This document shows, in pieces, positions 1,998 to 44,757 of a stretch of DNA of 64,000 nt. The notes under the pieces were generated by a model, which made no database searches, was not told the origin of the DNA, and worked only from the letters and a program-made list of their open reading frames with translations. The stretch is from Clostridia bacterium (GTDB taxonomy: Bacteria; Bacillota; Clostridia; Christensenellales; Aristaeellaceae): the NCBI GenBank assembly GCA_017552535.1, contig JAFZPV010000062.1:53034-117033 (forward strand). The letters are read 5' to 3'. The position numbers and the translations under genes are program-made. Positions within the stretch are counted from its first letter, which is position 1. Each line of letters starts with the position of its first letter.

Positions 1998-2954
1998 ATG
2001 GCTATGAAACGACTGGAAGACTTCCCGCGGCTGCCGCTTGGCGCGTTTCCCACGCCCATCCAGCGTCTGAACAATATAAGCGACCTGCTGGGCACGAACG
2101 TGTATCTGAAGCGCGACGACCTTACGGGCCTTGGCCTTGGCGGCAACAAGACGCGCAAGCTGGAGTTCCTGCTGGCGGACGCCAGGCAGAAGGGCGCAAC
2201 GCTGGTGTTCACCACGGGCGGGGCACAGTCCAACCACGCCATGCTCACCGCCGCGGCGGCGGGCAGGGCGGGCATGCGGGCCGTGCTGGTGCTCAAGAAA
2301 CGCGGCGTCACCGCGTGTGTGGGCAACCAGCTGCTGGAAAAGCTGATGGGCACCCAGGTCTGCTTTGTAGACACCGACGACTATCAGGACATCTACCGGA
2401 AGATGGACGAACTGGGCAAAGCGTCCGGTGAGGTATACTACAAGATCCCCTGCGGGGGCTCCAACGCCCTTGGCACATTGGGATACGTGGACTGCGCGCG
2501 GGAGATCGCACACCAGGCGCCCCGGTTCCATCACATCGTATGCGCGGAGGGCAGCGGCGGCACCATGGCCGGCCTGGCGCTGGGGGCAAAGCTGTTTCTG
2601 CCCGGCACCCGCGTGCACGGCATGATGGTGGACACGGACCCCTTCGACGTGATCACCCTCGCGCTCATGAGGCAGGCGGCTGACCTGCTGGAGGCGCATG
2701 TCACGGTGGGACCGGAGGATTTCGACCTTACGGACATGTGCGGCCCCGGCTACGCTATCCCGTCTGAGGAGGGCAACGCCGCCGTGCGCCTCATGGCGGA
2801 GAAGGAAGGCATCTTCCTGGACCCCGTGTATACCGGAAAGGCATTCGCCGGCCTTGTGCGCATGGCGCGGCAGGGTGCGTTCGCGCCGGACGAGAACGTG
2901 CTGTTCCTGCATTCCGGAGGAGCGGGAGGACTTTTTGCGCTGGAAATGAAATGA
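1998..2954 (+). CDS. D-cysteine desulfhydrase / ACC deaminase-family PLP enzyme
   Basis: This is a PLP-dependent enzyme of the tryptophan-synthase-beta fold, in the group that splits D-cysteine to pyruvate, sulfide and ammonia or acts on 1-aminocyclopropane-1-carboxylate. The PLP lysine is in GLGGNKTRKLEFLL (K51), followed by the family segment GGAQSNHAMLTAAAAG. A glycine-rich phosphate-binding loop (EGSGGTMAGLALG) and a C-terminal HSGGAGGLFAL follow. Length is 318 residues, as in the family. The ATG at 1998 has GGAAAGG upstream, and a second in-frame ATG lies three codons in. The last codons (EMK-stop) are supplied by the first hairpin of repeat copy A, so the native C-terminus may have been altered by the repeat. 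The exact substrate cannot be told from sequence. Confidence 0.85.
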   Translation: MAMKRLEDFPRLPLGAFPTPIQRLNNISDLLGTNVYLKRDDLTGLGLGGNKTRKLEFLLADARQKGATLVFTTGGAQSNHAMLTAAAAGRAGMRAVLVLKKRGVTACVGNQLLEKLMGTQVCFVDTDDYQDIYRKMDELGKASGEVYYKIPCGGSNALGTLGYVDCAREIAHQAPRFHHIVCAEGSGGTMAGLALGAKLFLPGTRVHGMMVDTDPFDVITLALMRQAADLLEAHVTVGPEDFDLTDMCGPGYAIPSEEGNAAVRLMAEKEGIFLDPVYTGKAFAGLVRMARQGAFAPDENVLFLHSGGAGGLFALEMK

Positions 2955-3323
2955 GATTTCATTTCCAGCGGTTAGGCTTTTGAAGTCGTTTGTTCTTTTT
3001 TTCCGAAACGTCATGTTTTTCCGGTTCCAGTGACAAGCTTTCAGTTTTTTCTGAAATGCCTGCGGGCATTTTCGGGCGAAAGGCGGGCTGGTTCAAATCT
3101 TTGATTTGAACCAGTGCGTCCCGCACTTTGTGCGGGATTGACTTGCCCTAAGGTAAGTCAACCTCAAACTGCAAGGACAGAAAAATCACTCCCGGGCGGC
3201 AAGCTGCCCTTTGCGATTTTACTTCCTCGGGCCGGCAAAGCTGGCCCTGCGGATTGAATTGGAGGGGTGCGCCCCTCCAAGCCGCCTGGCGGAATGAAAA
3301 TGGAGGGGCTATGCCCCTCCAAA
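2938..3323 (+). repeat. Hairpin-chain repeat, copy A (long form)
   Basis: This is one of five related intergenic repeats. The elements in order are: H1, arms CGCTGGAAATGAAAT (2938-2952) and ATTTCATTTCCAGCG (2956-2970) around GAG; H2, AAATGCC (3054-3060), loop TGCG, GGCATTT (3065-3071), nested inside CAGTTT/AAACTG (3042-3047 with 3166-3171). Between H2 and its outer closing stem sits a three-hairpin cassette at 3088-3114 (12-bp stem), 3119-3137 (8-bp stem) and 3138-3161. Then follow H3 (AAAAATC... with inner GGGCGGC/GCTGCCC), H4 (GGGCCGGC-AAA-GCTGGCCC) and H5 (TTGGAGGGG/CCCCTCCAA). H1 contains the stop codon of the upstream gene. No ORF inside is supported. The rest of the gap up to rho (3324-3370) shows nothing clear. 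Confidence 0.85.
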
Positions 3324-3370
3324 ATCAATTGTGGATTGAACCGTTTTCTGTAATTACCCTTATGTTATCA

Positions 3371-5176
3371 TCATTTTCCCAACTGTTTCAGCCAAAGGCT
3401 CATGCGCGCGATCAGCTCCCGGTTGGTGCTGGTCTTTTCCATGAGGGACAAAAGCTCCGCGGCGTCCTGGCCGCCGGACTGGGCCATGACGCGGCGGATC
3501 TGCAGCGCGCCGGCGGCTTCCTCCGGGGTGTAGAGCAGTTCGTCCCGGCGGGTGCCGGAGCGGTTGAGCTCGATGGCTGGGAAGATGCGCCTTTCGCTCA
3601 GCTTGCGGTCCAGGTGCAGTTCCATATTGCCGGTGCCCTTGAATTCCTCGTATATGATGTCGTCCATGCGGCTGCCCGTATCCACCAGGGCCGTGGCGAT
3701 GATGGTGAGGCTTCCGCCAAACTCGATGTTGCGGGCGGCGCCGAAGAACTTTTTGGGCCTGAGCAGCGCGCCCGGGTCCAGGCCGCCGGACAGCGAGCGT
3801 CCGGTGGGCGGGATCACCAGGTTGTAGGCGCGGGCCAGGCGCGTGATGGAATCCAGCAAAATCACCACGTCTTTGCCCATCTCCACTTGGCGCTGGGCCT
3901 TGTCCAGCACCATTTCGCTTAAGCGCGCGTGGTTTTCCGGCGCCTCGTCGAAGGTGGAAAACAGCACTTCGCCGCTGGTGGAGCGCTGCATGTCGGTCAC
4001 TTCCTCGGGGCGCTCGTCGATCAGGAGCACCATGAGCTGGACCTCGGGATAGTTATCGGTGATGGCGTTGGCGATCTTTTTGAGAAGCACGGTCTTGCCG
4101 GCCTTGGGCGGCGAAACGATCAGGCCCCTCTGCCCTTTGCCGATGGGGGCCAGCAGGTCTATGGTGCGAAGCGCGAGGTCCGTGCCGCCCAGGGGGTCTT
4201 CCAGGCGCAGGCGCTGGTTGGGAAAGATGGGGGTGAGGTCCTCAAAGCGGGGCCTGCGGCGGGCCGCGTCCGCGGAGGCGCCGTTCACGGTGCTCACGTA
4301 GATCATGCCCTCGTAGCGGTCGCCTTCCCGCTGGGGACGGGTCTTGCCAGTGATGTAGTCGCCGTTTCTCAGGTTGAAGCGGCGTATCTGCGTCTGGGAA
4401 AGATACACGTCCCGTGGGCCGGGCAGGCAGTTGTCCGCGCGAAGAAAGCCGTAACCGTCCGGCAGGATCTCCAGCACGCCCCGGCCTTCGCCCCAGTCGC
4501 CCTGCGGCGGCTCGGCGGTCCTGGGTTCGCTTTCGCCAAACGGCAGCTCGGCCTTCTCATCTGAAGCGGGCGGCTCGGCAACGGGCTCCAAAGCAGCTGC
4601 GGGCTGCGAAACGGCTGCAGGTTCGGCGGACGTAGATTCGTCTGGCGCGGGGGCAGGTTCCAAAGCGGTTTTCCGGCGCGGTTTTTTCTCCGTGCGGGCA
4701 GGCGCGTCCGGCGCCTTATCTTCGGCGGGCGCGGGCTGTACCGGGGCTTTCTCTTCCGGAGCGGCCTGCGCTTCCTTCTCGGGCGCAGCGGCTTCCGCGG
4801 CCTGGCCGGAGGTCTTCCGTCCGCGCTTTTTCGTTTCGGCCTGCGGTGTATCCGCAGGTTCCTTCGCCTTGCGCGGCTTTGTGCTTCTTTTGGCCTGCGC
4901 GGTTTTTTCCTCGGCTGCGGGGGCTTCCTTTGCCGCGGGCTTTTCCTCTTCGGTTTTCGCCTTTGCGCGGGCCGAGGGCTTTTTTTCCGCCTTTTCCGGG
5001 GCGGAGGAAGCGGGCTTCGGTTCGGCTTTGGCCTTTTCCTCAGCTTCGCGCTGCGCGTTGACCAGAAGCTCGATGATCTTCGCCTTGGTCGCGCCGGAAG
5101 GCAGCTTGATGCCGGCCTGCCTGGCAAGCAGCTTCAGCTGCGCGCCGGTTTTGACGTACAAATAATCTGTATCCAT
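3371..5176 (-). CDS. rho: Transcription termination factor Rho with long low-complexity insert
   Basis: Rho is the hexameric RNA helicase that ends transcription of untranslated RNA. Residues 1-45 form the N-terminal helical Rho_N domain. Residues about 45-230 are an Ala/Pro/Glu/Lys-rich stretch. The cold-shock-like RNA-binding domain follows ([14 protein letters not shown], about 233-300), then the RecA-type ATPase with Walker A PPKAGKT (356-362), Walker B in [14 protein letters not shown] and the terminal ATPase segments. At 601 residues it is longer than the roughly 420-residue E. coli protein because of the insert, as in some Actinobacteria and Clostridia. ATG 5176 is preceded by AGGAGG. 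It is the last gene of a minus-strand unit rpsU - methylase - rho, with only 15 bp to the methylase gene. Confidence 0.97.
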
Positions 5177-5191
5177 GTGTCCTCCTGAATG

Positions 5192-6175
5192 TCAGGGTTT
5201 TCTGCATACGGCCACGTCCCGGGTGATGGCCTGTTCCACCCAATGGCGCATTTCGTCCCACGCGCCGCCCTCCATCACTTCAAAGCCGCTTTCGCGCATA
5301 AGCAGGCGCACGGTGTCCCGGGGCAGGGTGAAGGTGTTGAACGCTACTGCCGCGGCGCCGCCGGGCAGAAGGCATTTTTTCCACGCGGGCAGGACGCTTT
5401 TGAGCATGGCTTCAAAGCCGTTTTTGCCGCTGGGCGCGTGCTGAACGCCGTAGGGGAGATCCGCGGCGATCGCGTGGACTCTTTCTTTGGGATAAACGTT
5501 TTTGCACAGTGCGGCGTCTGCCTGGGCCAAATGCAAAAACGCTTCACCCTGCCCGGCGCTGAACCGGAAAGAATCGATAAAAACAGGCTTTTGGCCCTGT
5601 ATCGTCTGGGATGAACGCGCGTAAACGTGCTTCACGCGCTGGGTCTCGAGGTACTTTTTAAAGTATTTGGCGCACTCGTCCGTTTCGCGCCTGTCCGCGT
5701 CCAGGCCCAGGGCGCAGTATCCGCGGTTGACCGCCTCGAACAGCGTGGTGCCCTTGCCGCACATGGGGTCCATCAGTGTGAGCCTGTCCGACAGGGAAAA
5801 GCGGGAGGCCAGAACGGCCAGATTGACCAGAAGGGACGTAAAGTATTCGTTGGTCTTGCCCTTGTATTTCAGAATGAACTTAAGATCGCTGCCGATCCGG
5901 GCGGGAAACGCGCCCGCGATAGGAATAAACTCAGTATCGCGGCGCTGGCAGAGCCACAGCGCGTGGCTGTGGAGCGACAGGGCATTGATGCATTCCGGAG
6001 AAAGTGTGGCGGATTCAAACCCCAGGGAGCGGATGCCGAAAACGTCCTCATACGTGATGTCCGGCGCAAGACCGAACGCGTTTAAGATCAGCTTCAGCTC
6101 AGCCGTCAGGGGCGCGCGCATCGCCGCTTCCAGGCGTCCGTTGTTCAGCGGGCGCAGCAAAAGCGAATAATACAT
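5192..6175 (-). CDS. Class I SAM-dependent RNA/DNA methylase-like protein (UPF0020 type)
   Basis: A Rossmann-fold methyltransferase is indicated by the SAM-binding motif MDPMCGKGTTLFEA and the catalytic-type motif ADLPYG (the NPPY-like DPPY/DLPYG box of the UPF0020/TrmG10 group). The N-terminal part (MYYSLLLRPLNNGRLEAA) resembles no domain I can name. The target is probably RNA, but this is inference. A longer reading frame begins at 6253, but ATG 6175 is preferred because CAGGTGA lies about 5-11 nt before it and the upstream residues look non-native. The mature product has 327 residues. It lies between rpsU (with a hairpin in between) and rho. Confidence 0.75.
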   Translation of the reverse strand: MYYSLLLRPLNNGRLEAAMRAPLTAELKLILNAFGLAPDITYEDVFGIRSLGFESATLSPECINALSLHSHALWLCQRRDTEFIPIAGAFPARIGSDLKFILKYKGKTNEYFTSLLVNLAVLASRFSLSDRLTLMDPMCGKGTTLFEAVNRGYCALGLDADRRETDECAKYFKKYLETQRVKHVYARSSQTIQGQKPVFIDSFRFSAGQGEAFLHLAQADAALCKNVYPKERVHAIAADLPYGVQHAPSGKNGFEAMLKSVLPAWKKCLLPGGAAAVAFNTFTLPRDTVRLLMRESGFEVMEGGAWDEMRHWVEQAITRDVAVCRKP

Positions 6176-6317
6176 ACAGTTCACCTGTATCCATACAGGG
6201 CAATGAGCAGGGTGAGTGATGCGGGACCGAAGAAATGATGCGCCGGCGGTCATGCACCGGCAGCGGACGCGGCCTGGCCTGAAGAGGCCGTAAAGAAACG
6301 GTGCGTCCTAAAGATAC

Positions 6318-6345
6318 GCCCCTTTGCAATATGATGCAAAGGGGC
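6318..6345 (-). terminator. Hairpin between rpsU and methylase gene (possible partial terminator)
   Basis: An 11-bp perfect stem, GCCCCTTTGCA with TGCAAAGGGGC around a 6-nt loop, lies just after the rpsU stop. On the minus strand it is followed by GTATCTTTAGG, which is only moderately T-rich, so it may attenuate rather than end transcription into the methylase-rho genes. Confidence 0.55.
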
Positions 6346-6359
6346 ACATACGCAAAGAA

Positions 6360-6533
6360 TCAATACTTACGCTTGCGGGCAGCTTCCGCTTTCTTCTTGC
6401 GCTTTACGCTGGGCTTTTCGTAATGCTCACGTTTACGGGCTTCGGCAAGGATACCGCTGCGGGCCGTGAGGCGCTTGAATCTGCGCAGCGCGCTTTCGAG
6501 AGACTCGTTATCGTGTACTCGGATTTCTGACAT
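6360..6533 (-). CDS. rpsU: 30S ribosomal protein S21
   Basis: A 57-residue basic protein reading [19 protein letters not shown] and ending in a Lys/Arg-rich tail ([15 protein letters not shown]) matches S21, a small-subunit protein that helps translation initiation. The frame is open upstream to 6611, but the start is ATG 6533, which has a strong GGGGAGGG site about 6 nt before it and gives the standard S21 N-terminus. It has its own promoter about 65 bp upstream and heads the minus-strand unit continuing to rho. Confidence 0.97.
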
Positions 6534-6599
6534 TGTTTTCCCTCCCCTCGCGATTGCTGGCACCGGTTGCCTCGTAGCATGGGGTGCGCTACTTGGGGT

Positions 6600-6628
6600 A
6601 TTATACCGCACGCAGGCGCTTCCGTCAA
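6600..6628 (-). promoter_or_regulatory. Sigma-A promoter of rpsU
   Basis: On the minus strand TTGACG (6628-6623) and TATAAT (6605-6600) are separated by 17 bp. The predicted leader to rpsU is about 60 nt. Confidence 0.85.
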
Positions 6629-6701
6629 GGTAATTTTATCTTAAGCTTTGGAAAACATAATCGAAGAACGCAACTGTCCATATCGCCGGCTGGATATAGC
6701 G

Positions 6702-6729
6702 GCGCCCCCGGGCGGACTGCCGGGGGCGC
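6702..6729 (-). terminator. GC-rich hairpin after hsp20
   Basis: A 10-bp stem GCGCCCCCGG/CCGGGGGCGC with an 8-nt loop lies 25 bp after the hsp20 stop. There is no clear T-run on the minus side, so this is a terminator-like hairpin rather than a certain terminator. Confidence 0.5.
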
Positions 6730-6754
6730 GGGGATTCAGCGCTCGCAGGGAGCG

Positions 6755-7183
6755 TCAGCCTTCGATGGAGATGAACTTGTTCTCTTCCTTGGGCGCGATC
6801 AGCTCGGGCTTGGGGAAGGAGATCTTCAGGATGCCGTCCTCGAAACGGGCCTTGATGTCTTCCTGCTTTACGTCCTTGCCCACGTAGAAGCTGCGGGAGC
6901 AGCTGCCCCAGTAGCGTTCGCGGCGCAGGTACCTGCCCTTTTCACCCTTGTCATCCTCGGTCTTCGCGCTGGCGGATACGGTCAGGTAGCCGTCCTTGAG
7001 CTCGGCCTGCACGTCTTCCTTTTTGTAGCCGGGCAGCTCGATGTCCAGCTCATAGCCGGTCTCGGTCTCGCGGATGTCCGTGCCCATCAGCTGGCGGGTA
7101 TACCGGGTCTGGTTTGCGGGGCGCGCGAAATCCTCAAAAAATCCGTCAAACAGGTCATCGTTAAAGAAGCTTCTCATCAACAT
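6755..7183 (-). CDS. Hsp20 / alpha-crystallin small heat shock protein
   Basis: This is an ATP-independent holdase that binds unfolding proteins in the cytoplasm. The 142-residue protein has a short N-terminal arm (MLMRSFFNDDLFDGFFEDF), a central alpha-crystallin domain (about 40-130: GYELDIELPGYKKEDVQAEL, then YLTVSASAKTE, ERYWGSCSRSFYV) and the ending DGILKISFPK. ATG 7183 has GGAGGT upstream. Transcription is very likely controlled by HrcA, because a perfect CIRCE operator covers the -35 and spacer of its promoter. Monocistronic: rpsU lies downstream beyond a hairpin and its own promoter. Confidence 0.97.
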   Translation of the reverse strand: MLMRSFFNDDLFDGFFEDFARPANQTRYTRQLMGTDIRETETGYELDIELPGYKKEDVQAELKDGYLTVSASAKTEDDKGEKGRYLRRERYWGSCSRSFYVGKDVKQEDIKARFEDGILKISFPKPELIAPKEENKFISIEG

Positions 7184-7274
7184 GGTGTTTTACCTCCGTT
7201 CATTTTATATACATTTGTTCCGGTGCGGGGGAGGGCCTTCTTCTGTGCGGCTCTTCTTCCCTGAGCACGTTTGC

Positions 7275-7303
7275 ATTATAACACACTTGTTAGCACTCGT
7301 CAA
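7275..7303 (-). promoter_or_regulatory. Sigma-A promoter of hsp20
   Basis: Minus-strand TTGACG (7303-7298) and TATAAT (7280-7275) are separated by 17 bp. The -35 hexamer lies partly inside the 9-nt spacer of the CIRCE element, so HrcA binding would block polymerase. Confidence 0.85.
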
Positions 7304-7316
7304 TAGTGAGTGCTAA
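7290..7316. promoter_or_regulatory. CIRCE operator (HrcA) for hsp20
   Basis: TTAGCACTC - 9 nt - GAGTGCTAA is an exact match to the CIRCE consensus bound by the HrcA repressor. It overlaps the hsp20 promoter. Confidence 0.97.
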
Positions 7317-7370
7317 CAATCCAGGTTAACAGTGAGTAAATTCCAACCTGGCGCGAGCAGCCCCTGTTTC

Positions 7371-7766
7371 CGCTGCATAAGTCGGAAGAATCCGCCGGGT
7401 GGTTTGGAGGGGCCACGTCCTCCAATTTCAATCCGAAGGGCCGGCTTTGCCGGCCCGAGGAGGAAAAATCACGAAGGGCAGCTTGCCGCCCGGGAATGAT
7501 TTTTCTTTCATTGCAGTTTGAGGTTGACTTGCCCAGGGCAAGTCAATCCCGCACAAAGTGTGGGACGCACTGGTTCAAATCAAAGATTTGAAGCAGCGCG
7601 CCTTTCGCCCGGAGATTTCCGCAGAAATCTCAGAAAAACTGAAAACCTGTTGCTGAGATCGGTGAAAGTTCGCGTCCCGGAAGAAAAACGTATCACATGT
7701 ATCCAAACTAAACCGCTGGAAATGAAATCCCATTTCATTTTCCTGCGAAGGGCTGCTTGGCAGCCC
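7371..7766 (-). repeat. Hairpin-chain repeat, copy B (long form, minus orientation)
   Basis: Element direction is leftward. In that direction: a leading hairpin GGGCTGC/GCAGCCC (7766-7750), H1 with one bulge (GGAAAATGAAAT ggg ATTTCATTTCC), and H2 with AGATTTC-TGCG-GAAATCT (7630-7613). Then comes the same three-hairpin cassette as in copy A (about 7510-7595), including TGACTTGCC-ctg-GGCAAGTCA. H3 follows, then H4 GGGCCGGC-AAA-GCCGGCCC (fully paired where other copies have a G.U pair), H5 and a 3' tail ending GACTTATGCAGC shared with copy C. This is the only copy that does not follow a co-oriented gene: its 5' end abuts the divergent promoter at 7771. Confidence 0.85.
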
Positions 7767-7770
7767 TGTG

Positions 7771-7799: not shown

Positions 7800-7820
7800 A
7801 AACGAAAGGGGTGAACGCCT

Positions 7821-16744: not shown

Positions 16745-16862
16745 TGTCCACGGGTGATGACGGTCGGGCCCCGTGCGGCGTCATGCCGTGAACCATGTCA
16801 GGGCCGAAAGGCAGCAGCATTAAGCGGAAGTTGGCGTGCGCCGCGGATCAGCCTGTCCCGAG
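16745..16862 (+). ncRNA. ffs: Signal recognition particle RNA (small bacterial type)
   Basis: The universally conserved helix 8 is present at about 16796-16819: TG-TCAGG-GCC-GAAA-GGC-AGCAG-CA. That is the symmetric UCAGG/AGCAG loop bound by Ffh, capped by a GNRA tetraloop (GAAA where E. coli has GGAA). The 5' CGGG at 16751-16754 can pair with CCCG at 16857-16860 to close the rod. The short length of about 118 nt, without an Alu domain, indicates the 4.5S type. Ends are inferred from the promoter and the closing pairs. Confidence 0.88.
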
Positions 16863-22133: not shown

Positions 22134-22447
22134 GGCTGCAGAGCAGCCATTCGCCGGAAATGAAATGGGATTTCATTTCCGGCGGTTTGGTTTTTGGAGC
22201 CTTTTGCCCGATTCATAACCGAAACGTCTGATGATGTCCGGCTCCAGCAGCAGGTTTTCAGTTTTTTCTGAGATTTCTGCGGAAATCTCCGGGCGAAAAA
22301 ACTGCAAGGAAAGAAAAATCACTCCCGGGCGGCAAGCTGCCCTTCGTGATTTTTCCTCCTCAGGCCGGCAAAGCTGGCCCTGCGGATTGAAATTGAAGGG
22401 GTGCTGCCCCTCCAAGCCACCCGGCGGTTTTTCCCAACTTATGCAGC
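22134..22447 (+). repeat. Hairpin-chain repeat, copy C (short form)
   Basis: It starts on the base after the khpB stop. Elements: leading hairpin GGCTGC-AGA-GCAGCC (22134-22148); H1 with 14-bp arms GCCGGAAATGAAAT/ATTTCATTTCCGGC around GGG (22153-22183); H2 AGATTTC-TGCG-GAAATCT (22271-22288) closed by CAGTTTTTTC/GAAAAAACTG (22259-22268 with 22295-22304). H3 AAAAATCAC/GTGATTTTT with inner GGGCGGC/GCTGCCC follows, then H4 GGCCGGC-AAA-GCTGGCC, H5, and a tail ending AACTTATGCAGC shared with copy B. It lacks the three-hairpin cassette of copies A and B. Confidence 0.85.
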
Positions 22448-22500
22448 AACCCCTTTGCATCAGGCAGGAATAACAGCAGATTCCTTTCAGAAGCGACCGT

Positions 22501-22560
22501 CCCCAAAGCCTTCCCCTTCAGGGGAAGGTGGCGCGGCTTGCCGCGACGGATGAGGTGGAG
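22501..22560 (+). repeat. Left inverted repeat of DUF559 cassette
   Basis: CCCCAAAGCCTTCCCCTTCA, then GGGGAAGGTGGC and a GCGGC-rich spacer to GATGAGGTG. Its inverted counterpart lies at 23077-23133. It contains its own small hairpin (CTTCCCCttcaGGGGAAG type). This sequence type recurs in gut Firmicutes genomes as I recall; that point is from memory. Confidence 0.7.
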
Positions 22561-37418: not shown

Positions 37419-37469
37419 CATCAAAAGACCAAAAACAAACCGGGGCTGCTGCAGAGCCCCGTAATTCTT

Positions 37470-37763
37470 AAGGAGGTTTGGAGGGGCAGCGCCCCTTTAT
37501 TTCAATCCGCAGGGCCAGCTTTGCCGGCCCGAGGAGCGATTTTTGCGCCGGGAGCGCAGCAAAGCGGAGACGACCAGAGCAAAGAATCGCTACATTGCAG
37601 TTTTTGCTAAAACTCCGCAGAGTTTTAGCAAAAACTGAAAACCTGTCTCTACATCCGGAAACCATCAGGCGTTTCGGAAAACAAACAATCAAATGTATCC
37701 AAAACCAAACTGCCGGGAATGAAATCCCATTTCATTCCCGGCGAAAATCTGCCCTGCAGCCCG
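37470..37763 (-). repeat. Hairpin-chain repeat, copy D (short form, minus orientation)
   Basis: Element direction is leftward; it begins within 2 bp of the stop of the minus-strand XRE gene. Elements: partial leading hairpin (GGGCTGCAGGGCAG), H1 with GCCGGGAATGAAAT ggg ATTTCATTCCCGGC, and H2 as a perfect 18-bp stem (CAGTTTTTGCTAAAACTC with its complement, 37598-37637) capped by TGCG in element orientation. H3 is of the second type (GCGATT.../...AATCGC), then H4 GGGCCGGC-AAA-GCTGGCCC and H5. With copy E it forms a subtype distinct from A/B/C. Confidence 0.85.
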
Positions 37764-37764: not shown

Positions 37765-39324
37765 TTAAATCGCGTCGTTCACCGCATTCATCAGCGCCCA
37801 GTCGCCCCGGGCGATGGCGGTCTTGCACACGGCCTTCACGCAGTCGCGGCTGGCGGTGCGGGCGTAGAGCCTCAGGGCGTCCAGGGCTTCTTTCCCGCCG
37901 TCCAGGGCCTTGGATATCACCATATCGGAGATTTCCTCATCCGCGAAGGGGGAAAGGTCGCTCACCCGCGCCCAGAGCCCCTCGTCGCACAGCTTTTCCA
38001 GCAGGCCTTTGTGCGCCTCCGCGTCTAGGTACGGCGCGGCGTTCAGAACGACGTCGGCGGCTTCCGCCTGGCCGAGCTCCCGGGAGGCGGAGAGGGCGAT
38101 GCTTTTGAGCAGCTCCTGATCCCGGATGGAGGAAAGGTTCTGCTTGAGCCACAGCCAGTTGCGGGCTTCCAGCGCGGCGGACGCGATCTGGTCCCGCAGC
38201 GCGTCCTTGTCTTCCGGCTGAACGTCTGAAGGGGCAGGGCCTTCTTCGGGAGTCTGCGCTTCGTCTGCATCCGCCGGGCGCTCTTCCCCGCGGCTTTCTT
38301 CGTTTGCCGGGGCCTCTTCGGGCGCTTCGGGTTCTTCGGACACTGCGTCTTCCGCCTGTTCCGGCTCCGCGTGCTGCGCCTCCATGGTCTGGGCGAAGTT
38401 CACCGCGGCGTCCCGGAGCTTTCCGAACAGGCTCTCCGCGCCGGCCTTCGCCTTGTCGGCAAAGTCGTTCACGGCGGGGGAGGAGGCCGCGCGCCTCACG
38501 CCGTTCACCGCGTCCACCAGCGTGTCCACCATTCCCCTTTTCAGGAAGGGGGCCAGCTTTTTAAGGGACGCCATGTCCAGCGTGTCGGCGTTTTCCATGA
38601 CCAGGCGGAACAGATGCTCCTTTTTGAGGAAGGGCGCGAAGGACGAAAGCTGCTCCGCAGTGAGGGGAGAGACCTGACGCAGCTTTTCGCCCAGCGTTTC
38701 CTGCGTAAGGAAGGGCGCCAGATGCAAAAGCGTCTTCCGGTCGATGGGGCCCTGATACGCTTCCACCATCGCGCTGATCTTTTCGCGGCTCATGAAGGGC
38801 GCCAGGTCCACCAGGGCTTCCAGGCTCATGGGGTTTTCATCTGCGCCGTCTTTTACTTCGGGCGCGAAGGCGCTTTCTTCGGCACCGTCGTCCTCTTCGG
38901 CGTCTTCCTCTTCGTCGTCCTCATCGCCGCCCAGGGCGCTTTTGCAGGCGTCAAATGCGTTTGACAGCGCGCCGCCCACGCGGCTGAAGATGGCGTTTCC
39001 GATCTCGGAGGCGGTCTGCGCCGTGCGTTTCGCCGCTTCCTTCAGCCCTTCCACCACATCGGGATCGAACAGCGGCTCGTCTTTGGCGGGTTCGGCGGCC
39101 TGCTCCGGTTCGGCGGGCTGCTTCAGAAGCTGCTCCATCGTCACTCCGAACAGGCGTGAAATATTCAGAAGGGATTCGATGTCCGGCAGCGCGGCGCCGG
39201 TCTCCCACTTGGACACTGCCTGATGGGAAACGCCCAGCGCGGCGGCCAGCTGCTGCTGCGTCATGCGGAAACTGACGCGCAGACGGGCGATGTTTTCACC
39301 CACATATTTATTGTTGATAGGCAT
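37765..39324 (-). CDS. XRE HTH protein with tandem APFL-motif helical repeats
   Basis: Residues 1-70 are a Cro/CI helix-turn-helix (VGENIARLRVSFRMTQQQLA, VSHQAVSKWETGAALPDIES). After an acidic linker come tandem repeats of about 30 residues with the core LxxLAPFLxxExLxxLV: DLAPFMSREKISAMV, HLAPFLTQETLGEKL, SFAPFLKKEHLFRLV and KLAPFLKRGMVDTLV. A second acidic low-complexity region follows, then a C-terminal helical part with degenerate versions (NAAPYLDAEAHKGLLE, DLSPFADEEISDMVI). No transmembrane segment was seen. ATG 39324 is chosen (AAGGAGG 8 nt upstream). It looks like a DNA-binding protein with an alpha-solenoid sensor. It is divergent from htpG. Function unknown. Confidence 0.8.
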   Translation of the reverse strand: MPINNKYVGENIARLRVSFRMTQQQLAAALGVSHQAVSKWETGAALPDIESLLNISRLFGVTMEQLLKQPAEPEQAAEPAKDEPLFDPDVVEGLKEAAKRTAQTASEIGNAIFSRVGGALSNAFDACKSALGGDEDDEEEDAEEDDGAEESAFAPEVKDGADENPMSLEALVDLAPFMSREKISAMVEAYQGPIDRKTLLHLAPFLTQETLGEKLRQVSPLTAEQLSSFAPFLKKEHLFRLVMENADTLDMASLKKLAPFLKRGMVDTLVDAVNGVRRAASSPAVNDFADKAKAGAESLFGKLRDAAVNFAQTMEAQHAEPEQAEDAVSEEPEAPEEAPANEESRGEERPADADEAQTPEEGPAPSDVQPEDKDALRDQIASAALEARNWLWLKQNLSSIRDQELLKSIALSASRELGQAEAADVVLNAAPYLDAEAHKGLLEKLCDEGLWARVSDLSPFADEEISDMVISKALDGGKEALDALRLYARTASRDCVKAVCKTAIARGDWALMNAVNDAI

Positions 39325-39357
39325 TGCATTGTCCTCCTTTTCCATGTCGCTGTGCGC

Positions 39358-39393
39358 AGTATACCACATTCAACCATCGGTTGCAAGCAACCG
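39358..39393 (-). promoter_or_regulatory. Promoter of APFL-repeat regulator with overlapping palindrome
   Basis: Minus-strand TTGCAA (39386-39381), 17 bp, TATACT (39363-39358). The -35 lies inside the palindrome CGGTTGC-AA-GCAACCG (39378-39393), a likely operator for autoregulation by the XRE protein. Confidence 0.7.
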
Positions 39394-39438
39394 TTAGTAG
39401 AATTTACAAACGTCTAACCTGCGCCGAAGTGTAAAATA

Positions 39439-39465
39439 TTAGCACTCTTATATGTTGAGTGCTAA
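39439..39465. promoter_or_regulatory. CIRCE operator (HrcA) upstream of htpG
   Basis: TTAGCACTC - 9 nt - GAGTGCTAA, exact CIRCE consensus. It ends 7 bp before the -35 hexamer of the htpG promoter at 39473. Confidence 0.96.
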
Positions 39466-39472
39466 AAATCTC

Positions 39473-39501
39473 TTGACGAAACCTGCTGCAAGGTATACAA
39501 T
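39473..39501 (+). promoter_or_regulatory. Sigma-A promoter of htpG
   Basis: TTGACG (39473-39478), 17 bp, TACAAT (39496-39501); leader of about 22 nt to ATG 39530. Confidence 0.8.
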
Positions 39502-39529
39502 TGCACCATCACATCAGGAGGCGATACAT

Positions 39530-41446
39530 ATGTCGGAAAAAGGCAGTATTTCCATACATGCGCAAAATATCATGCCCGTCATCAAAAAGTGGCTGTATTC
39601 GGACAAGGACATCTTCCTTCGGGAACTGGTAAGCAACGGCTGCGACGCCATCAGCAAGTATAAGACCCTCGTCCGCAGCGGCGACGCCCCGGAGCGCGAA
39701 AACTACCGCGTGGACGTGGTGGTGGACAAGCCCGCCGGCACCCTCACCATCTCTGACAACGGCATCGGCATGACCGCGGAGGAGATCAAAAAGTACATCT
39801 GCCAGGTGGCGTTTTCCGGCGCGGAGGAGTTTTTAAAGCAGTACAAGCCCGACCAGGGCGAAAACGGCGGCATCATCGGCCACTTCGGCCTGGGCTTCTA
39901 CAGCGCGTTCATGGTATCCAAAAAGGTAGTCATCGAGACCCTGTCCTGCCAGACAGGGGCCGAGGCCGCGAAGTGGACCAGCGAGGACGGCATGGAGTAC
40001 GAGCTGGAACCCTCAGGCCGCACCGAGCCCGGCACCTCCGTCATCCTGTACATCAACGAGGACGACAGCGAGTTCCTGGATAAGTGGACGGTGCGCTCCA
40101 CGCTGGAAAAGTACTGCGCCTTCATGCCTACGGAGATCTACTTAAGCGAGAACGTGCCCGAGGCGCCCAAGGCCGAAAAGCCCGAAGAAGAAAAGGCCGA
40201 TCAGCCCGAAGCGGAAGACGGCGACAAAAAAGAAGAAGAGGCGCCCCGCAAGGAAGAGCCGGTGCTGGTGAACGATACACAGCCTCTTTGGATGAAGAAG
40301 CCCTCCGACTGTACGGACGAGGAATACAAAAGCTTCTACACCAGGGTGTTCCACGAGTACGACGAGCCGCTGTTCTGGATACACTTAAACGCCGAGTTTC
40401 CATTCAACCTCAAGGGCATCCTGTATTTCCCCAGGCTCAAAAACGAGTTCAGCGCCAACGAGGGCGTGATCAAGCTGTTCAACAACCAGGTCTTCGTGGC
40501 GGACAACATCAAGGAGGTCATCCCGGAGTTCCTGATGCTGCTCAAGGGCGTGATCGACTGCCCCGACCTGCCGCTGAACGTGTCCCGCTCCTTCCTGCAG
40601 AACGACGGCTACGTGCGCAAGATGAGCGATTACATCACCCGCAAGGTGGCTGACCGCCTGGTGAGCGAGTTCAACACCCGCCGCAGCGAATACCAGGGCT
40701 ACTGGAAGGACATCCATCCCTTCGTGAAGTACGGCTGCATCAAGGACGAAAAGTTCTACGAGCGCGTGAAGGACGCCGTGATCTTCCGCACCACGGCGGA
40801 CGAATATCTGACCGCGAAGGAATACAAGACCAAGAACGTGGACGAAGGCAAGGACTTCGTGATGTACTACACCTCCGACGAGAAGCGCCAGGCCCAGATG
40901 ATCGAAATGTTCACCTCCCAGGGCATCGACGTGGCGGTGATGGACACCCTCATCGACAACAACTTCATGAGCTTCATGGAGTATTCCGGCAAGGACGACA
41001 AGATCCAGTTCCGCCGGGTGGACGCGGGCGTGGACGGCCTGACGGACGACGTGAAGGCGGACGAGGAGCAGGAAAAGAAGCTGAAGGAGATCTTCCAGAC
41101 CGCGCTGGACGACAAGGATCTGGACGTGAAGCTGGTGAGCCTGAAGAGCGACGAGCTGCCCGCCATGATCACGGTGGAAGAGCAGTCCAGGCGCTTTACG
41201 GAGATGAGCCGCCAGTGGGGCGGCGGCATGACGCTGCCCGAAAAGCGCACCCTTACGCTGAACCTCAAGCATCCGCTGGTGGCGTACTTAAACGGCGACA
41301 GCGCCGATGAGGAGACCCGCAAGCTCGTGTGCGAGCAGATCGTGGACCTGGCGGAAATGGCGCGCCAGCCGCTGGTGGCGGAGCGCATGGTGGCCTTCCT
41401 CAGGCGCAGCAACCAGATCCTGTGCAAGGCTGTGGAAAACAAGTGA
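39530..41446 (+). CDS. htpG: Molecular chaperone HtpG (Hsp90) with acidic N-M linker
   Basis: A 638-residue Hsp90. The GHKL ATPase domain (1-205) has LRELVSNGCDAISKYKTL (Asn36, Asp39), ISDNGIGMTAEEI and GIIGHFGLGFYSAFMV. Residues about 208-244 form a highly charged Lys/Glu/Pro/Asp stretch (PEAPKAEKPEEEKADQPEAE) between the N and middle domains, where bacterial HtpG normally has only a short link. The middle domain begins near LWMKKPSD, and the C-terminal dimerisation domain ends in NQILCKAVENK. ATG 39530 follows CAGGAGG. HrcA control is expected from CIRCE. Its stop overlaps the GTG of the apbE gene. Confidence 0.97.
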   Translation: MSEKGSISIHAQNIMPVIKKWLYSDKDIFLRELVSNGCDAISKYKTLVRSGDAPERENYRVDVVVDKPAGTLTISDNGIGMTAEEIKKYICQVAFSGAEEFLKQYKPDQGENGGIIGHFGLGFYSAFMVSKKVVIETLSCQTGAEAAKWTSEDGMEYELEPSGRTEPGTSVILYINEDDSEFLDKWTVRSTLEKYCAFMPTEIYLSENVPEAPKAEKPEEEKADQPEAEDGDKKEEEAPRKEEPVLVNDTQPLWMKKPSDCTDEEYKSFYTRVFHEYDEPLFWIHLNAEFPFNLKGILYFPRLKNEFSANEGVIKLFNNQVFVADNIKEVIPEFLMLLKGVIDCPDLPLNVSRSFLQNDGYVRKMSDYITRKVADRLVSEFNTRRSEYQGYWKDIHPFVKYGCIKDEKFYERVKDAVIFRTTADEYLTAKEYKTKNVDEGKDFVMYYTSDEKRQAQMIEMFTSQGIDVAVMDTLIDNNFMSFMEYSGKDDKIQFRRVDAGVDGLTDDVKADEEQEKKLKEIFQTALDDKDLDVKLVSLKSDELPAMITVEEQSRRFTEMSRQWGGGMTLPEKRTLTLNLKHPLVAYLNGDSADEETRKLVCEQIVDLAEMARQPLVAERMVAFLRRSNQILCKAVENK

Positions 41447-42462
41447 AACTGAATAAGATCGCTCTGTGGGGGATGGCGCTTTTGATGGCGCTGTCCCTCA
41501 GCGCATGTACAAAAAACAAAAGCGAAACGCGCGAGCTTTTCGCCATGGATACCTATATGACCCTGACTGCCTGCGGCGACAGCGCAGATAAAGCGCTGGA
41601 CGATGCGGTCAGACTCATAAACGAAAACGACGCCCGGTGGTCGGTCACCCGCCCCGAAAGCGAGTTAAGCCATCTGAACGCGCAAAAAAGCGCTGCTGTA
41701 AGCGAAGAGACGAAGCGGCTGCTCGGGCGCGCGTCGGAGATGAGCGCCTTTACGGACGGCGCGTTCGATCCCACGGTATACCCACTGGTGAAGGCCTGGG
41801 GCTTTACGACGGGCGCGCACTGGGTGCCCGGCGACAGCGAGATCAGAAGCCTTCTGGACCTGGTTGGCATGGAAAAACTGAGCCTTTCAGGCGCGGAGGC
41901 GTCCCTGTCGGGCGGCGCGCAGATCGACCTGGGCGGCATCGCCAAGGGATATACGGGAGACATGGTGCTTTCCCTTCTGCGGAAAGCAGGCGTGAAAAGC
42001 GCGATCGTCAACCTGGGCGGCAACGTGCAGACCCTCGGCTCCAAGCCCGACGGCTCTGCCTGGCGCATCGGCATCCGTTCGCCTTACGGGAGTTCCCTGC
42101 TGGGCACGGTGGAAGTGAGGAACATGTGCGTCATCACCTCCGGCGCCTACGAGAGAAGCTTCACCGCGCCGGACGGAACGGTGTACGGCCACATCATTTC
42201 CCCGTTCACGGGCCGGCCCGTTCAAAACGCCTGCGTCTCCTCCACGGTGGTGGCGGAAGAAGGCGCCACGGCGGACGCGCTCTCCACGGCGCTGTTCGTG
42301 ATGGGGCCGGAAAAGGCGGCGGAATTCTGGAAGGCGCACGGCGGTTTTGAATTCCTGATGCTGGATGATCAGGGAACGCTGTATGTCACTGAAGGCATTT
42401 TGAGCAGCTTTACGCCTGCAAACGGCGGGGACGTAAAAACGGTATGCGAAATAAAACGGTAA
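41443..42462 (+). CDS. apbE: FAD:protein FMN transferase (ApbE), lipoprotein
   Basis: ApbE attaches FMN through a phosphoester to Thr/Ser of extracytosolic flavoproteins. GTG 41443 overlaps the htpG stop. Residues 1-22 are a lipoprotein signal (LMALSLSAC, C22). Family motifs follow: FAMDTYMTLTACG, ENDARWSVTRPESELSHLN, GAFDPTVYPLVKAWGF, QIDLGGIAKGYTGD, AIVNLGGNVQTLG and the Mg2+ site near EEGATADALSTALFVMG. Length 339 residues, normal. With the next two genes it resembles FmnB of extracellular electron transfer loci. The flavinylated partner is not visible in the window. Confidence 0.94.
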   Translation: MKLNKIALWGMALLMALSLSACTKNKSETRELFAMDTYMTLTACGDSADKALDDAVRLINENDARWSVTRPESELSHLNAQKSAAVSEETKRLLGRASEMSAFTDGAFDPTVYPLVKAWGFTTGAHWVPGDSEIRSLLDLVGMEKLSLSGAEASLSGGAQIDLGGIAKGYTGDMVLSLLRKAGVKSAIVNLGGNVQTLGSKPDGSAWRIGIRSPYGSSLLGTVEVRNMCVITSGAYERSFTAPDGTVYGHIISPFTGRPVQNACVSSTVVAEEGATADALSTALFVMGPEKAAEFWKAHGGFEFLMLDDQGTLYVTEGILSSFTPANGGDVKTVCEIKR

Positions 42463-42827
42463 GAGCCTGCATTTTCGCCGTGCTGGCGGTATTCCTGCTT
42501 GCGCTGGCCGGCACGGTGCTGACCTTGCGCCGGGACGGCGGGGAAAGCATAGAGATCGTGTCCGACGGCACGGTGGTGTATTCCGGCCCCGCGAAAGCGG
42601 AGGGCGAGCCTGTGTACGTGCCCGTCCAGACCGAACGGGGCATGAACCTGGTGCGCATCGACGCCGAAGGCGTGTGCGTGGAAAGCGCGGACTGCCCGGG
42701 TCAGGAGTGCGTGAGCTCGGGATACCTCAAAAGCGCGTATCTGCCCGTGGTGTGCCTTCCGCACCGGCTGGTGATACGCTTTGCCAAAACGCCCGGCGAA
42801 GGGGCGCCGGACGCGGTGAGCGAATGA
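42444..42827 (+). CDS. NusG domain II membrane-anchored protein (EetA-like)
   Basis: A 127-residue protein with one N-terminal TM (ACIFAVLAVFLLALAGTVLTL) and an extracytosolic NusG domain II (PF07009-type): IEIVSDGTVVYSG ... GMNLVRIDAEGVCVESADCP, GQECVSSG and VVCLPHRLVIRF. Three cysteines (CVESADCPGQEC) are conserved in the family. Such genes regularly sit beside apbE and a Gx transporter gene; in Listeria-type extracellular electron transfer loci the pair is called EetA/EetB (from memory). It overlaps apbE by 19 bp and the next gene by 4 bp. Confidence 0.85.
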   Translation: MRNKTVRACIFAVLAVFLLALAGTVLTLRRDGGESIEIVSDGTVVYSGPAKAEGEPVYVPVQTERGMNLVRIDAEGVCVESADCPGQECVSSGYLKSAYLPVVCLPHRLVIRFAKTPGEGAPDAVSE

Positions 42828-43315
42828 AGACGAGAAAGCTTACGGCCATGGCGCTCATGACCGGCGCCGCCCTGATGATCCACTATGTGGAAAGCCTCCT
42901 GCCGGCGCTGGTGCCGGTGCCGGGGGTCAAGCCGGGCCTTGCCAATATCGTGACGCTCCTGGCGCTGTACATGTTTGCGCCCCGGGACGCGCTTCTGATC
43001 GTGGCGGCGCGCCTGATCCTGGGAGCGTTTGTCGGCGGTAGCTTTTCCGCGCTTCTGTACGCGGCGGCGGGCAGCGCCGTGAGCCTGGCGGTGATGCTGC
43101 CCCTGTCCCGCGTGCTTCCGCCCAGGTACATGTATCTGGCCAGCATCCTGGGCGCGGCGGGCCACAACCTGGGGCAGATCGCGGTGGCTGTGGCGGTCAC
43201 GCGCACGCCGTCCCTCGTGGTCTACCTGCCCGTTCTGACGCTTTCCGGCTGTATAGCCGGCGCGTTCACGGGCTTTTGCGCCTCGTTTGCATATCTCCGC
43301 CTGATCAAAAAGTAA
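42824..43315 (+). CDS. Gx transporter family protein (EetB-like, 'heptaprenyl diphosphate synthase component I')
   Basis: A 163-residue hydrophobic protein with about five membrane helices. It is recognised by the HepS/Gx pattern: MIHYVESLLPALVPVPGVKP, GLANIVTLLALYMFAPRDAL, VAARLILGAFVGGSFSALLY. Databases often name this family heptaprenyl diphosphate synthase component I, but it is an ECF-S-like membrane protein. The ATG overlaps the previous stop (ATGA). Together with ApbE and NusG_II it likely serves an extracytosolic flavin or quinone process. Confidence 0.85.
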   Translation: MKTRKLTAMALMTGAALMIHYVESLLPALVPVPGVKPGLANIVTLLALYMFAPRDALLIVAARLILGAFVGGSFSALLYAAAGSAVSLAVMLPLSRVLPPRYMYLASILGAAGHNLGQIAVAVAVTRTPSLVVYLPVLTLSGCIAGAFTGFCASFAYLRLIKK

Positions 43316-43437
43316 ACTGCCCGCATCTGAACAGCCACACAATTTAACGGAAAACAACGGCTTTTTCCGTGAACATTTGCGCGCCTTATGCGTATAACAA
43401 TGTGCAGGCAAAAAGCCTGAGGAAGGAAGAAACACAC

Positions 43438-44448
43438 ATGAAAAAGATGATCGCACTGATACTGAGCGTTATGATGGCCCTGCCCGTTTTCGCCGTTGCG
43501 GAACAGGCGGAGATCGGCTTTGACGACCTTGCCGGACTGGAATGGAGCTTTTTGAGCGGCGTAGGCGCCTGGTCCACGGATATGCGGTTCCAGGAAGACG
43601 GCTCGTTCAGCGGGGAGTTCCACGACAGCGAGATGGGGGAATCCGGCAAGGATTATCCCGACGGCACCGTTTACTGCTGCTCCTTTGCGGGCCGCATGAG
43701 CCTTGCGGGACAGGCGGACGAATACGCCTGGAAGGTACACGTCGATCAGCTGAAGGTCAACGAAGAGGTGGGCAGCGAGTATATCGACGACGGCATCCGC
43801 TTCGTGATCGTCGAGCCTTACGGCATCAGCGAGGGCGACGACATGCTTCTGTACAGGCCGGGCACCCCCGTGAATGTGCTGAGCGAAGACATGTATCTGT
43901 GGGCCCACGTGATGGACGACGGGGAGCCTGCTGAAGCGCTTGAAACCTGGTTTCTGATGAGCGAAAAGAACGAATCCGGCTTTGTGGGATATTCCTTTGA
44001 CGAAGCGGGCTTCGCAAATCCCTGGATCGATGTGACGGAGGAGGAGCTGATCCAGACTGTCGGCGTGTACTTCGGCGTGCCGGACGGGGCTGAGAACGTC
44101 GTTTACCGCGCTCTGCCTGACGCAGAACTTGCCGAGATGCAGTTTACCATCGGCGATGACGAGTTCTGCGCCCGCATCCAGTCCGCCGCCCTGGAGTACG
44201 GCCAGCTGATGAACATCGCAGACATGTACTTTGCTTGGGAAAACGAGCAAGCCATCACGGTGCAGCACTGCTACGGCACCATCGCGCAGGCGCAGACCGG
44301 CAGCGAGGACTGGGCGGAACTGTGCCTGTGGTACGACCTGGTGCCGGGCCTGATGTACTCCCTGTCCGTTTCGACCACCGACCCGGACGGCTTGGACCTG
44401 ACGGCGATCGCGGAGCAGGTATACATTCCGATGCAGGGAGACTGCTGA
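43438..44448 (+). CDS. Secreted protein of unknown function
   Basis: A 336-residue protein with a clear signal peptide (MKKMIALILSVMMALPVFAV, cleavage near AVA-EQ), no later TM and a very acidic mature part. It contains two areas with spaced acidic and aromatic residues (WSFLSGVGAWSTDMRFQEDG, YFAWENEQAITVQHCYG). No FMN-attachment motif (S/T-G-A-T) is present, so it is not an obvious ApbE substrate. ATG 43438 has GGAAGG upstream. I do not recognise the family. The stop lies inside the start of repeat copy E. Confidence 0.75.
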   Translation: MKKMIALILSVMMALPVFAVAEQAEIGFDDLAGLEWSFLSGVGAWSTDMRFQEDGSFSGEFHDSEMGESGKDYPDGTVYCCSFAGRMSLAGQADEYAWKVHVDQLKVNEEVGSEYIDDGIRFVIVEPYGISEGDDMLLYRPGTPVNVLSEDMYLWAHVMDDGEPAEALETWFLMSEKNESGFVGYSFDEAGFANPWIDVTEEELIQTVGVYFGVPDGAENVVYRALPDAELAEMQFTIGDDEFCARIQSAALEYGQLMNIADMYFAWENEQAITVQHCYGTIAQAQTGSEDWAELCLWYDLVPGLMYSLSVSTTDPDGLDLTAIAEQVYIPMQGDC

Positions 44449-44757
44449 ACAGCGGTTCGCGCCGGAAATGAAATACGATTTCATTTCCGGCGGTTTGGCT
44501 TTTGGGGCCGTTTGCTTGTTTCCGATCCGACACGTCTGATGGTTTCCGGCATCTGTGACAGGTCTTCAGTTTTTGCTAAAACTCTGCGGAGTTTTCGGGC
44601 GCAAAAACTGTAAGGAAGCGATTCTTTGCTCTGGTCGTCTCCGCTTTGCTTCGCTCTCGGCGCAAAAATCGCTCCTCGGGCCGGCAAAGCTGGCCCTGCG
44701 GATTGAAAATGGAGGGGCACGCCGCCCCTCCAAGCCACCCTCTTGTTTTTCAGGCTT
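44449..44757 (+). repeat. Hairpin-chain repeat, copy E (short form)
   Basis: It begins at the stop of the secreted-protein gene. H1: GCCGGAAATGAAAT (44461-44474), loop ACG, ATTTCATTTCCGGC (44478-44491). H2: AAAACTC (44578-44584), TGCG, GAGTTTT (44589-44595), closed by CAGTTTTTGC/GCAAAAACTG (44567-44576 with 44601-44610). H3 is of the GCGATT/AATCGC type, then H4 GGGCCGGC-AAA-GCTGGCCC and H5 around GGAGGGG...CCCCTCC. A strong terminator follows 24 bp later, so the repeat is probably transcribed as the 3' end of the upstream message. Confidence 0.85.

Follow-up and report, generated by a model that had tools for sequence, protein, structure and literature searches.

Hairpin-chain repeats at gene 3' ends of a Clostridia bacterium are probably gene-less mobile elements, with sister branches that look like terminator-targeting IS1182-type miniatures

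For the IS1182 family, ISfinder gives target duplications that range from 0 to 60 bp. Two of its members, IS1272 and TnSha1, are described in passages of PMC5678879 and PMC4923244 as targeting hairpins by their structure and not by their sequence, several of these hairpins being confirmed terminators. Duplication of a whole stem-loop appears in the passages of PMC5678879 only as a drawn alternative ('pathway b'). Here we analyzed the window, a stretch of 64,000 nucleotides from a Clostridia bacterium, in which a sequence-only reading had described five long repeats, each an ordered chain of hairpins H1-H5, and had offered three options for their nature: a structured RNA, a MITE-like or REP-like mobile element, or a 3'UTR processing or termination module. 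We propose, with a probability of about 0.7, that the repeats are gene-less, non-autonomous (MITE-like) DNA transposons of ~200-400 bp that are moved in trans and settle at gene 3' ends.

All five repeats are present with the hairpins that had been described, and they score 242-326 bits in nhmmer searches with a profile of copies from their own genome, these five among them. Outer coordinates below are from nhmmer, and those of the core are covariance model matches converted to the window (contig coordinates minus 53033):

Copy 1, 2935..3292, + strand: begins at H1, without H0 and the 3' terminal repeat; ~85-nt extra module within H2; second H5-like hairpin overlapping the 3' edge. Core match 3124..3254 (+), with P2 split by the extra module.
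Copy 2, 7370..7766, - strand: has H0 and the ~85-nt extra module; lies between divergent genes, with no stop codon directly before it. Core match 7431..7560 (-).
Copy 3, 22134..22452, + strand: immediately 3' of the stop codon of a gene that we take to be jag-like. Core match R1 (P2-P3-P4) 22259..22387 (+).
Copy 4, 37443..37762, - strand: stop codon 1-2 nt before it; T-rich stretch behind it. Core match 37505..37637 (-).
Copy 5, 44440..44767, + strand: overlaps the end of the upstream ORF. Core match 44567..44703 (+).

The description of the chain needed amending: copies with a complete 5' end begin earlier, with an extra hairpin before H1 (GGGGCTG-TTGCA-CAGCCCC in a young subgroup), and H2 and H3 are alternative modules. 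In copies 1 and 2, it is the 3' strand of H2 that holds the ~85 extra nucleotides. Copies 2-5 contain most of the length of open frames of 80-104 aa, on strands that differ between copies.

The high-copy family inferred from these five copies is borne out by at least 58 core matches in the 2.39-Mb draft genome (covariance model, E<=0.001), a floor because 150 of the 1303 first-look candidates were scored. A single blastn query returned at least 54 pieces from the same genome (40 of 100 candidates scored), and such numbers are well beyond chance. Full copies of this branch carry the terminal inverted repeats GGGGCTGTTGCA / TGCAACAGCCCC; the 3' end of 5'-complete copies is TGCAACAGCCCC, and the inverted repeat is imperfect or lost in many. 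The elements have the short length, the terminal inverted repeats and the lack of a transposase gene of MITEs, together with high copy number and recent amplification in this genome, where the closest pairs of copies are 95-96% identical and the median pair 73%. Among the fetched loci, 16 contig ends fall inside a copy or within 2 nt of one, and the family explains at least 16 contig breaks in the draft.

Across 60 genomes searched, element matches were found in the window's genome (G000), in six of six same-genus genomes and in four others. Two further genomes match only a neighboring gene and not the element. The covariance model finds the family in at least 13 of 296 genomes of the order, G000 included (at most 11 candidates scored per genome). 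Copies are not confined to this contig but exist well beyond it, and no known Rfam family matches them: no score passed the gathering threshold for the window and 11 loci, and a search in E-value mode, on copy 1 only, also gave nothing for the element. Window copy 3 has no DNA match in the plasmid and phage collections. We found no description of this family in the open-access literature; an earlier report in print is possible. Of the three options, the MITE-like element is the best supported, by terminal inverted repeats, copy number, a near-identical subgroup and one empty site, and by transposon-type ends and target duplications in sister genomes.

Elements of these sister branches, with ends like CAGNNTGTYGACAAA, sit in intrinsic terminators, with the terminator hairpin on both sides. 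Whole-hairpin duplication was found for 23 copies in six genomes (G060, G061, G062, G011, G367 and G385), comprising 10 of the 73 named-genome copies with enough flank for the test and 13 distinct copies among 68 end sites. The latter come from 17 flagged sites, from which L223 (length at the search floor) was dropped, L189, hit at both ends, was counted once, and L197 and L204 were removed as copies already counted as L160 and L171. Mispaired flanks reached a score of >=15 in 2.2% of cases, a control that includes same-genome pairs and a truncated-locus artefact. Duplicates are near-perfect rather than perfect at L150, L189, L276, L277 and L286, and the hairpin at L139 is weak (5-bp stem). 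A hairpin of >=6 bp abuts the ends in 46 of 56 element-type sites, versus 20% of 3000 random positions and 13 of 38 unclassified pattern hits, where both classes of site were set by our own patterns and the order-wide end pattern has chance hits (its reversed control matches single sites in many genomes). Orientation could be scored for 21 duplicating copies, L150 and L276 being unpaired by the strict search: 4 lie in sense only, 5 in antisense only, 11 between convergent gene ends and 1 in neither arrangement. Since the duplicating genomes have no sense bias, that of the window's branch needs a separate explanation.

The same habit occurs in intact IS1182-type insertion sequences. Eight of ten plasmid loci, hand-picked from 340 records with a match, have CAG-type ends and a duplicated terminator-type hairpin; six of these eight elements are annotated as IS1182 family and two only as 'transposase'. 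The remaining loci, L316 and L320, have no duplication and no annotated intact transposase. In G189, the remnant of an IS1182 transposase adjoins the same CAG-type end; it has no relative in viral_contigs. This remnant is the only PF13751 match in 22 genomes searched, with none in the six duplicating genomes, all drafts, and the searched MITE-carrying genomes yielded no IS1182 element in intact form. The window's genome, a 77%-complete assembly, has no match to PF13610, PF01609, PF13808 or PF13751. With their CAGNNTGTYGACAAA-like ends, the same habit in IS1182-type elements and the G189 remnant, the sister branches resemble terminator-targeting miniatures of IS1182 type. They have the ends and the hairpin duplication of such elements; as no IS1182 transposase was found in the six draft sister genomes, we say that they work like, and have the ends of, IS1182-type elements rather than that they are established members. 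The window's branch has neither feature, with CAG-type ends at 0 sites in G000 and hairpin duplication in 0 of 34 copies.

What the window's branch does have is a preferred place. An ORF of >=60 codons ends on the same strand within 60 nt upstream of 29 of the 36 copies whose 5' end is complete, and within 12 nt for 18 of those 29, compared to 26% and 7% of random positions, respectively; no such ORF end lies near the start of the other 7. According to home-made gene calls, a same-strand gene precedes 35 of 44 copies. Thus, of the suggested 3'UTR or termination module, it is the place that stands: mostly just after stop codons here, and inside terminators in sister genomes. With 36 copies on each side, the upstream flank is 53-75% A at -4..-1 versus 25% at -60..-21, and the downstream flank 44-78% T at +2..+5 versus 26% at +21..+60. 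These A-rich and T-rich stretches, with no hairpin seen between the stop codon and the element, would suit a branch that replaces terminator hairpins, as IS1272 does, instead of joining beside the stop codon. We regard such replacement as possible but doubtful, given the one interpretable empty site, found in a same-genus genome (the copy at L061 compared with locus L033/L173, with synteny on either side; few loci are comparable), where insertion has neither duplicated nor replaced the terminator, which still lies downstream of the element. As to target site duplication in this branch, the left and right flanks of 24 copies from the window's genome share words that average 4.33, scarcely longer than the 3.72 for mispaired flanks (4.42 in the largest of 200 shuffles); at L043 the shared word is 8 bp.

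To return to MITE-like transposition, the mover in the sister genomes would be an IS1182-type DDE transposase. It would join the element ends at the 5' feet of the extruded target hairpin, and repair after this joining would thereby duplicate the hairpin. The hairpin copy on the T-run side would go on terminating, so that the host gene still ends, and an element lying in sense would be read as a 3'UTR extension of the gene running into it. The window's branch, with the shared core and the ends GGGGCTGTTGCA/TGCAACAGCCCC, could, with less assurance, depend on another transposase, related to that of the sisters but distinct from it, which would place the element immediately 3' of the stop codon, in most cases in sense, with no clear target duplication. 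Terminator copying may let the sister elements spread without silencing or over-running neighboring genes.

We further investigated the core. In Christensenellales-type genomes, 96.6% of cells are paired and covariation is seen in 20 of 25 pairs; there are 245 double-changed cells, and the motifs GG of AAGGAA, TCCTC and GCGGA are invariant; this structure and these motifs span genera whose elements differ in their ends. The underlying alignment A1 holds 42 representatives of the 89 sequences kept (107 of 178 sites were parsed), and it favors helix 1 because the script that chose its sequences demanded a P2 stem of >=8 bp. Without the stem filter, a stem of >=9 bp is found at the P2 place in 55 of 80 pattern hits versus 42 of 400 dinucleotide shuffles, and a looser unfiltered test, in which H1 was also able to count, gave 69 of 78 versus 21 of 78 mononucleotide shuffles. 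What is conserved in the core is thus probably a module that folds. The earlier idea of a structured RNA holds up as regards structure, with strong covariation, and this support stops short of a transcribed or functional RNA. A clear core is found in 16 of the 23 duplicating copies, a weak match in 2 and none in 5 (L256, L260, L276, L277 and L281), where the source sequences of some of the 23 went into building the model. Ends and core are therefore separable.

The double-changed cells and invariant motifs across genera with different ends would be expected of a functional, trans-acting family of structured ncRNAs, in which the core is a cargo with a cellular job and the transposon its vehicle. 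This appears unlikely: the five duplicating copies without a core share the ends and target habit, and in the core alignment of 1036 cells the 8 G-U pairs do not outnumber the 18 A-C mismatches, and so give no sign of strand-specific pairing. The parallel count in H1 is spoiled by its outermost pair, and the core count gives no firm verdict between RNA and DNA. Tentatively, and against the odds as we see them, terminator-targeting transposons might have spread the conserved module through this order of gut bacteria, with sense copies forming 3'UTRs in which termination is kept and the module acting as a functional RNA or folded DNA signal that persists when the transposon ends carrying it change. 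Sense copies would then be transcribed without loss of termination because insertion copies the hairpin and leaves the T-run downstream.

The strong covariation, the position just after stop codons with its sense bias, and the A-rich and T-rich flanks would also be compatible with a resident cis-acting 3'UTR or terminator module (REP-like), selected for mRNA 3'-end stability or termination and spread by occasional duplication. We consider this improbable in view of the terminal inverted repeats, the near-identical subgroup, the empty site, the duplicated hairpins and the insertions in antisense that sister genomes show, and the patchy distribution across the order. A Y1 transposase as mover, with the repeats being of REP/RAYT or IS200/IS605 type, a link raised by the sequence-only reading, is highly improbable, since the assembly's one Y1_Tnp gene does lie beside copy sequence but sits inside a copy as an insertion flanked by its own hairpin ends; terminal inverted repeats, as on these elements, and target duplications, as in the sisters, are moreover not known from IS200/IS605 elements.

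Other movers were considered and rejected. GGGGCTGTTGCA resembles the ends of IS6, which are GGNNCTGTTGCA, suggesting an IS6-type MITE; PF13610 (IS6/IS240 transposase) was found in 0 of 40 genomes. An ISAs1 transposase lies beside an element-like end in G060, but the ISAs1 elements of the order (L234-L236) have inverted repeats CACGGC.., and the place is therefore better read as an ISAs1 insertion within or next to a copy. An IS30 in the same genome (L216) is flanked on both sides by left ends of the element, in inverted orientation to each other; the IS30's own ends were read only by eye. Where a long ORF follows an end, it is on the other strand or is a neighboring gene.

Among the hairpins of bacterial genomes, intrinsic terminators are very common, and elements that recognize and duplicate them, and so keep the gene's terminator, would have a plain route to amplification at gene ends that does little harm. 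The conserved fold poses the question of whether a transposon carries a useful RNA or the fold serves transposition.

BOX, RUP, SPRITE, ERIC, REP and other bacterial MITE-like repeats are likewise short, high-copy, structured and intergenic, some modular and nested and some terminator-like, but they are unrelated as far as known, and no terminator duplication is described in the passages of PMC10969869. Long, variable target duplications are also a feature of IS1634/IS1549, which have a transposase of another family and duplications of 8-514 bp, and for which neither a mechanism nor a hairpin target is described in the passages of PMC2266710. IS1272 and TnSha1 share hairpin targeting with the sister elements, but in their mode as published in passages of PMC5678879 and PMC4923244 the hairpin is deleted or replaced and not duplicated. 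Unlike the insertion sequences of the IS1182 family (NCBIfam NF033551), the elements described here are ~200-400 bp, gene-less and mostly equipped with a structured core, and those of the window's branch have other ends and no hairpin duplication. The sister elements, like that family, have ends CAG-R-CTG-YY-GACAAAG or close and duplicate the whole hairpin, and would provide a natural case of the stem-loop duplication that the passages of PMC5678879 draw as a mere possibility.

The repeats make up a family of transposons that carry no gene. All five copies that the sequence-only reading had claimed in the window were borne out by sequence checks and a profile search. The window takes up 64 kb of contig C15. 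Its assembly, a draft of 2.39 Mb in 62 contigs and 77% complete, contains at least 58 core matches (the best 150 of 1303 candidates were scored), and 16 contig ends fall inside or at the edge of a repeat copy. The 33 near-full copies share a median pairwise identity of 73%, and a young subgroup reaches 95–96%. Among the matches listed, contigs with the core pattern come from Christensenella sp. UBA4379, Candidatus Faecaligallichristensenella and many uncultured Clostridia and Clostridiales, organism names that point to Christensenellales. A viral contig (L184, IMGVR_UViG_3300021399_000231) with tail tape-measure and baseplate genes also holds several core-like stretches; viral carriage is a possible route for the element between cells. 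Two ordinary features of the window came from an Rfam search:

57538-57736, T-box leader
16762-16861, bacterial small SRP RNA

Copies with a complete 5' end are built, 5' to 3', from H0, a long H1, a linker, P2, P3, P4, H5 and a terminal TGCAACAGCCCC. H0 reads GGGGCTG-TTGCA-CAGCCCC in the young subgroup; P2, called H2 in the sequence-only reading, has an inner hairpin, and P4 is GGGCCGGCAAAGCYGGCCC. The outermost 12 bases at either end form inverted repeats that match exactly in some copies but are degraded in many. There are alternative modules for P2 and P3, and an extra block of ~85 nt is present in two of the window's copies. Sister branches, found in six other genomes and bearing CAG-type ends, have the same layout in other sequences. 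In common with the window's branch they have the core, a location at gene ends and a 5' end that forms a hairpin. At two loci of one sister genome (L205 and L207, G061), two copies have, joined on at their 3' hairpin region, a sequence ending GGGGCTGTCTCACAAAC or GGGGCTGTCTCGCAAAC; this end looks similar to the terminal repeat found in the window's branch.

The fold of the core (P2-P3-P4) is real, because pairing and covariation hold and an unfiltered check of P2 agrees. Pairing holds in 96.6% of the 1036 cells from 42 diverse cores (72.3% in shuffles), 20 of 25 pairs show double changes (245 cells in total versus 77 in shuffles) and the covariation score is 0.578 versus 0.157; a one-column shift of the partners lowers pairing to 44–57%. 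This set had been chosen with a P2 filter, and the unfiltered check was therefore added: a stem of at least 9 bp stands at the P2 place in 55 of 80 pattern hits versus 42 of 400 dinucleotide shuffles, and one of at least 10 bp in 54/80 versus 17/400. Invariant in the core are the GG of AAGGAA, TCCTC and GCGGA. Pair counts (8 G-U, 18 A-C) do not separate RNA from DNA.

In the window's genome, the elements lie mostly behind genes. For 36 copies both a complete 5' end and sufficient flank were available; an ORF of at least 60 codons ends on the same strand within 60 nt upstream of 29 of them (26% at random positions) and within 12 nt of 18 (7%); by home-made gene calls, 35 of 44 copies are in sense behind a gene. 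The last four bases 5' of the element are 53–75% adenine versus 25% further out, and positions +2 to +5 after it are 44–78% thymine versus 26%. The mostly-sense arrangement would reflect either a polar target (stop codon plus A-run) or the purging of antisense copies. Comparison of paired flanks revealed no clear target duplication at own-genome copies. At one locus compared within the genus, gene, terminator and next gene are collinear and align without the element, as would follow if the element had entered the window's lineage at a point between stop codon and terminator, or had been cleanly lost from the other. Different element subfamilies lie behind apparently the same gene in two genomes (L061:5116 and L179), either a shared insertion or one site used repeatedly. 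Behind copy 3, at window 22510-22560, is a further hairpin repeat (CCTTCCCCTTCAGGGGAAGG...CGGATGAGGTGG), and one like it takes the place of the 3' end in another copy (L047); the probe word for this repeat occurs once within the window, no more than chance.

The sister genomes suggest a mechanism of movement. The same 22–37-bp hairpin stands on both flanks of 10 of 73 copies in named genomes, one pair differing by a base, and 68 end sites, many of them chance pattern hits, gave 13 further distinct duplicating copies. In all 23 the duplicated hairpin measures about 21–40 bp, a few pairs showing small differences, and every duplicated string can form a stem-loop, that of L139 a weak one. The duplication boundary lies at or near the stem foot, and its length follows the hairpin. 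The 8 bases that come next to the right of the right-hand hairpin include at least four T in 16 of 21 copies, and the 8 to the left of the left-hand one at least four A in 14 of 21, both counted without a control. Sister elements end in CAGNNTGTYGACAAA or a near variant of it (three genomes hold 37 exact matches, and none to the reversed pattern). A hairpin adjoins 46 of the 56 element-type ends, versus 20% of random positions. Insertion is not oriented: of 21 copies, 4 are sense, 5 antisense, 11 between convergent genes and 1 neither. By model search, the core is strong in 14 of the 23 duplicating copies (55–83 bits), clear in two (37 bits), doubtful in two (L253 and L283; E about 0.005) and absent from inside five (L256, L260, L276, L277 and L281), the weak match of L260 falling outside the element. 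Elements with and without a core both duplicate the hairpin; the ends and the target habit are therefore common to both.

We searched for the transposase by protein family. PF13610 was found in 0 of 40 genomes and PF13808 in 6 of 395, 4 over the cut-off. The single PF01609 match in four genomes is an ISAs1 gene, whose ends are the wrong ones. PF13751 matched in one of 22 genomes (G189, which also has core elements). The matching stretch is the C-terminal end of a transposase of the IS1182 family (NF033551 positions 420-486 of 488; E 5e-18, 65 bits; as a fragment it would be expected to score under that model's whole-protein cut-off, and does). Behind this remnant stand TTTGTTGACAGGCTG and then a hairpin. 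Other insertion sequences also meet the elements: in the window's genome one copy is interrupted by an IS200-like Y1 transposase unit that has hairpins at its ends (L073, G000:C6:27868-28224), and an IS30-family insertion sequence lies between two inverted left ends in a sister genome (L216, G060:C163; L202 starts alike). IS30 may prefer the palindromes of these left ends.

Intact elements with CAG-type ends and a duplicated 18–30-bp hairpin were found at 8 of 10 plasmid loci chosen from the 340 matching records; six are annotated as IS1182 family and two only as transposase:

L311-L315 and L317-L319, duplicating plasmid insertion sequences of Bacillota and Pseudomonadota, hairpin on both sides; hosts B. 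subtilis, Brevibacillus, Salinivibrio, Rhizobium (two), Sutcliffiella, Staphylococcus simulans and Sphingobium

Hairpin-seeking IS1182 elements are already known in outline; in the open-access literature we found no description of a high-copy, structured miniature branch across an order with hairpin duplication as the rule. The window's branch failed both feasible tests of likeness to IS1182, CAG-type ends and hairpin duplication. The sister branches, in contrast, are like IS1182 in ends and target habit, and would on these grounds be IS1182-type; searches of their draft genomes turned up no IS1182 gene, so the label goes no further. IS1272 of the IS1182 family is reported to target terminator hairpins (PMC4923244, PMC5678879), as the sister elements do, but to delete or replace them where the sister elements duplicate them. 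PMC5678879 also draws another possible result of joining at the 5' feet, duplication of the whole stem-loop, and this drawn alternative is seen in the sister elements and in the eight insertion sequences.
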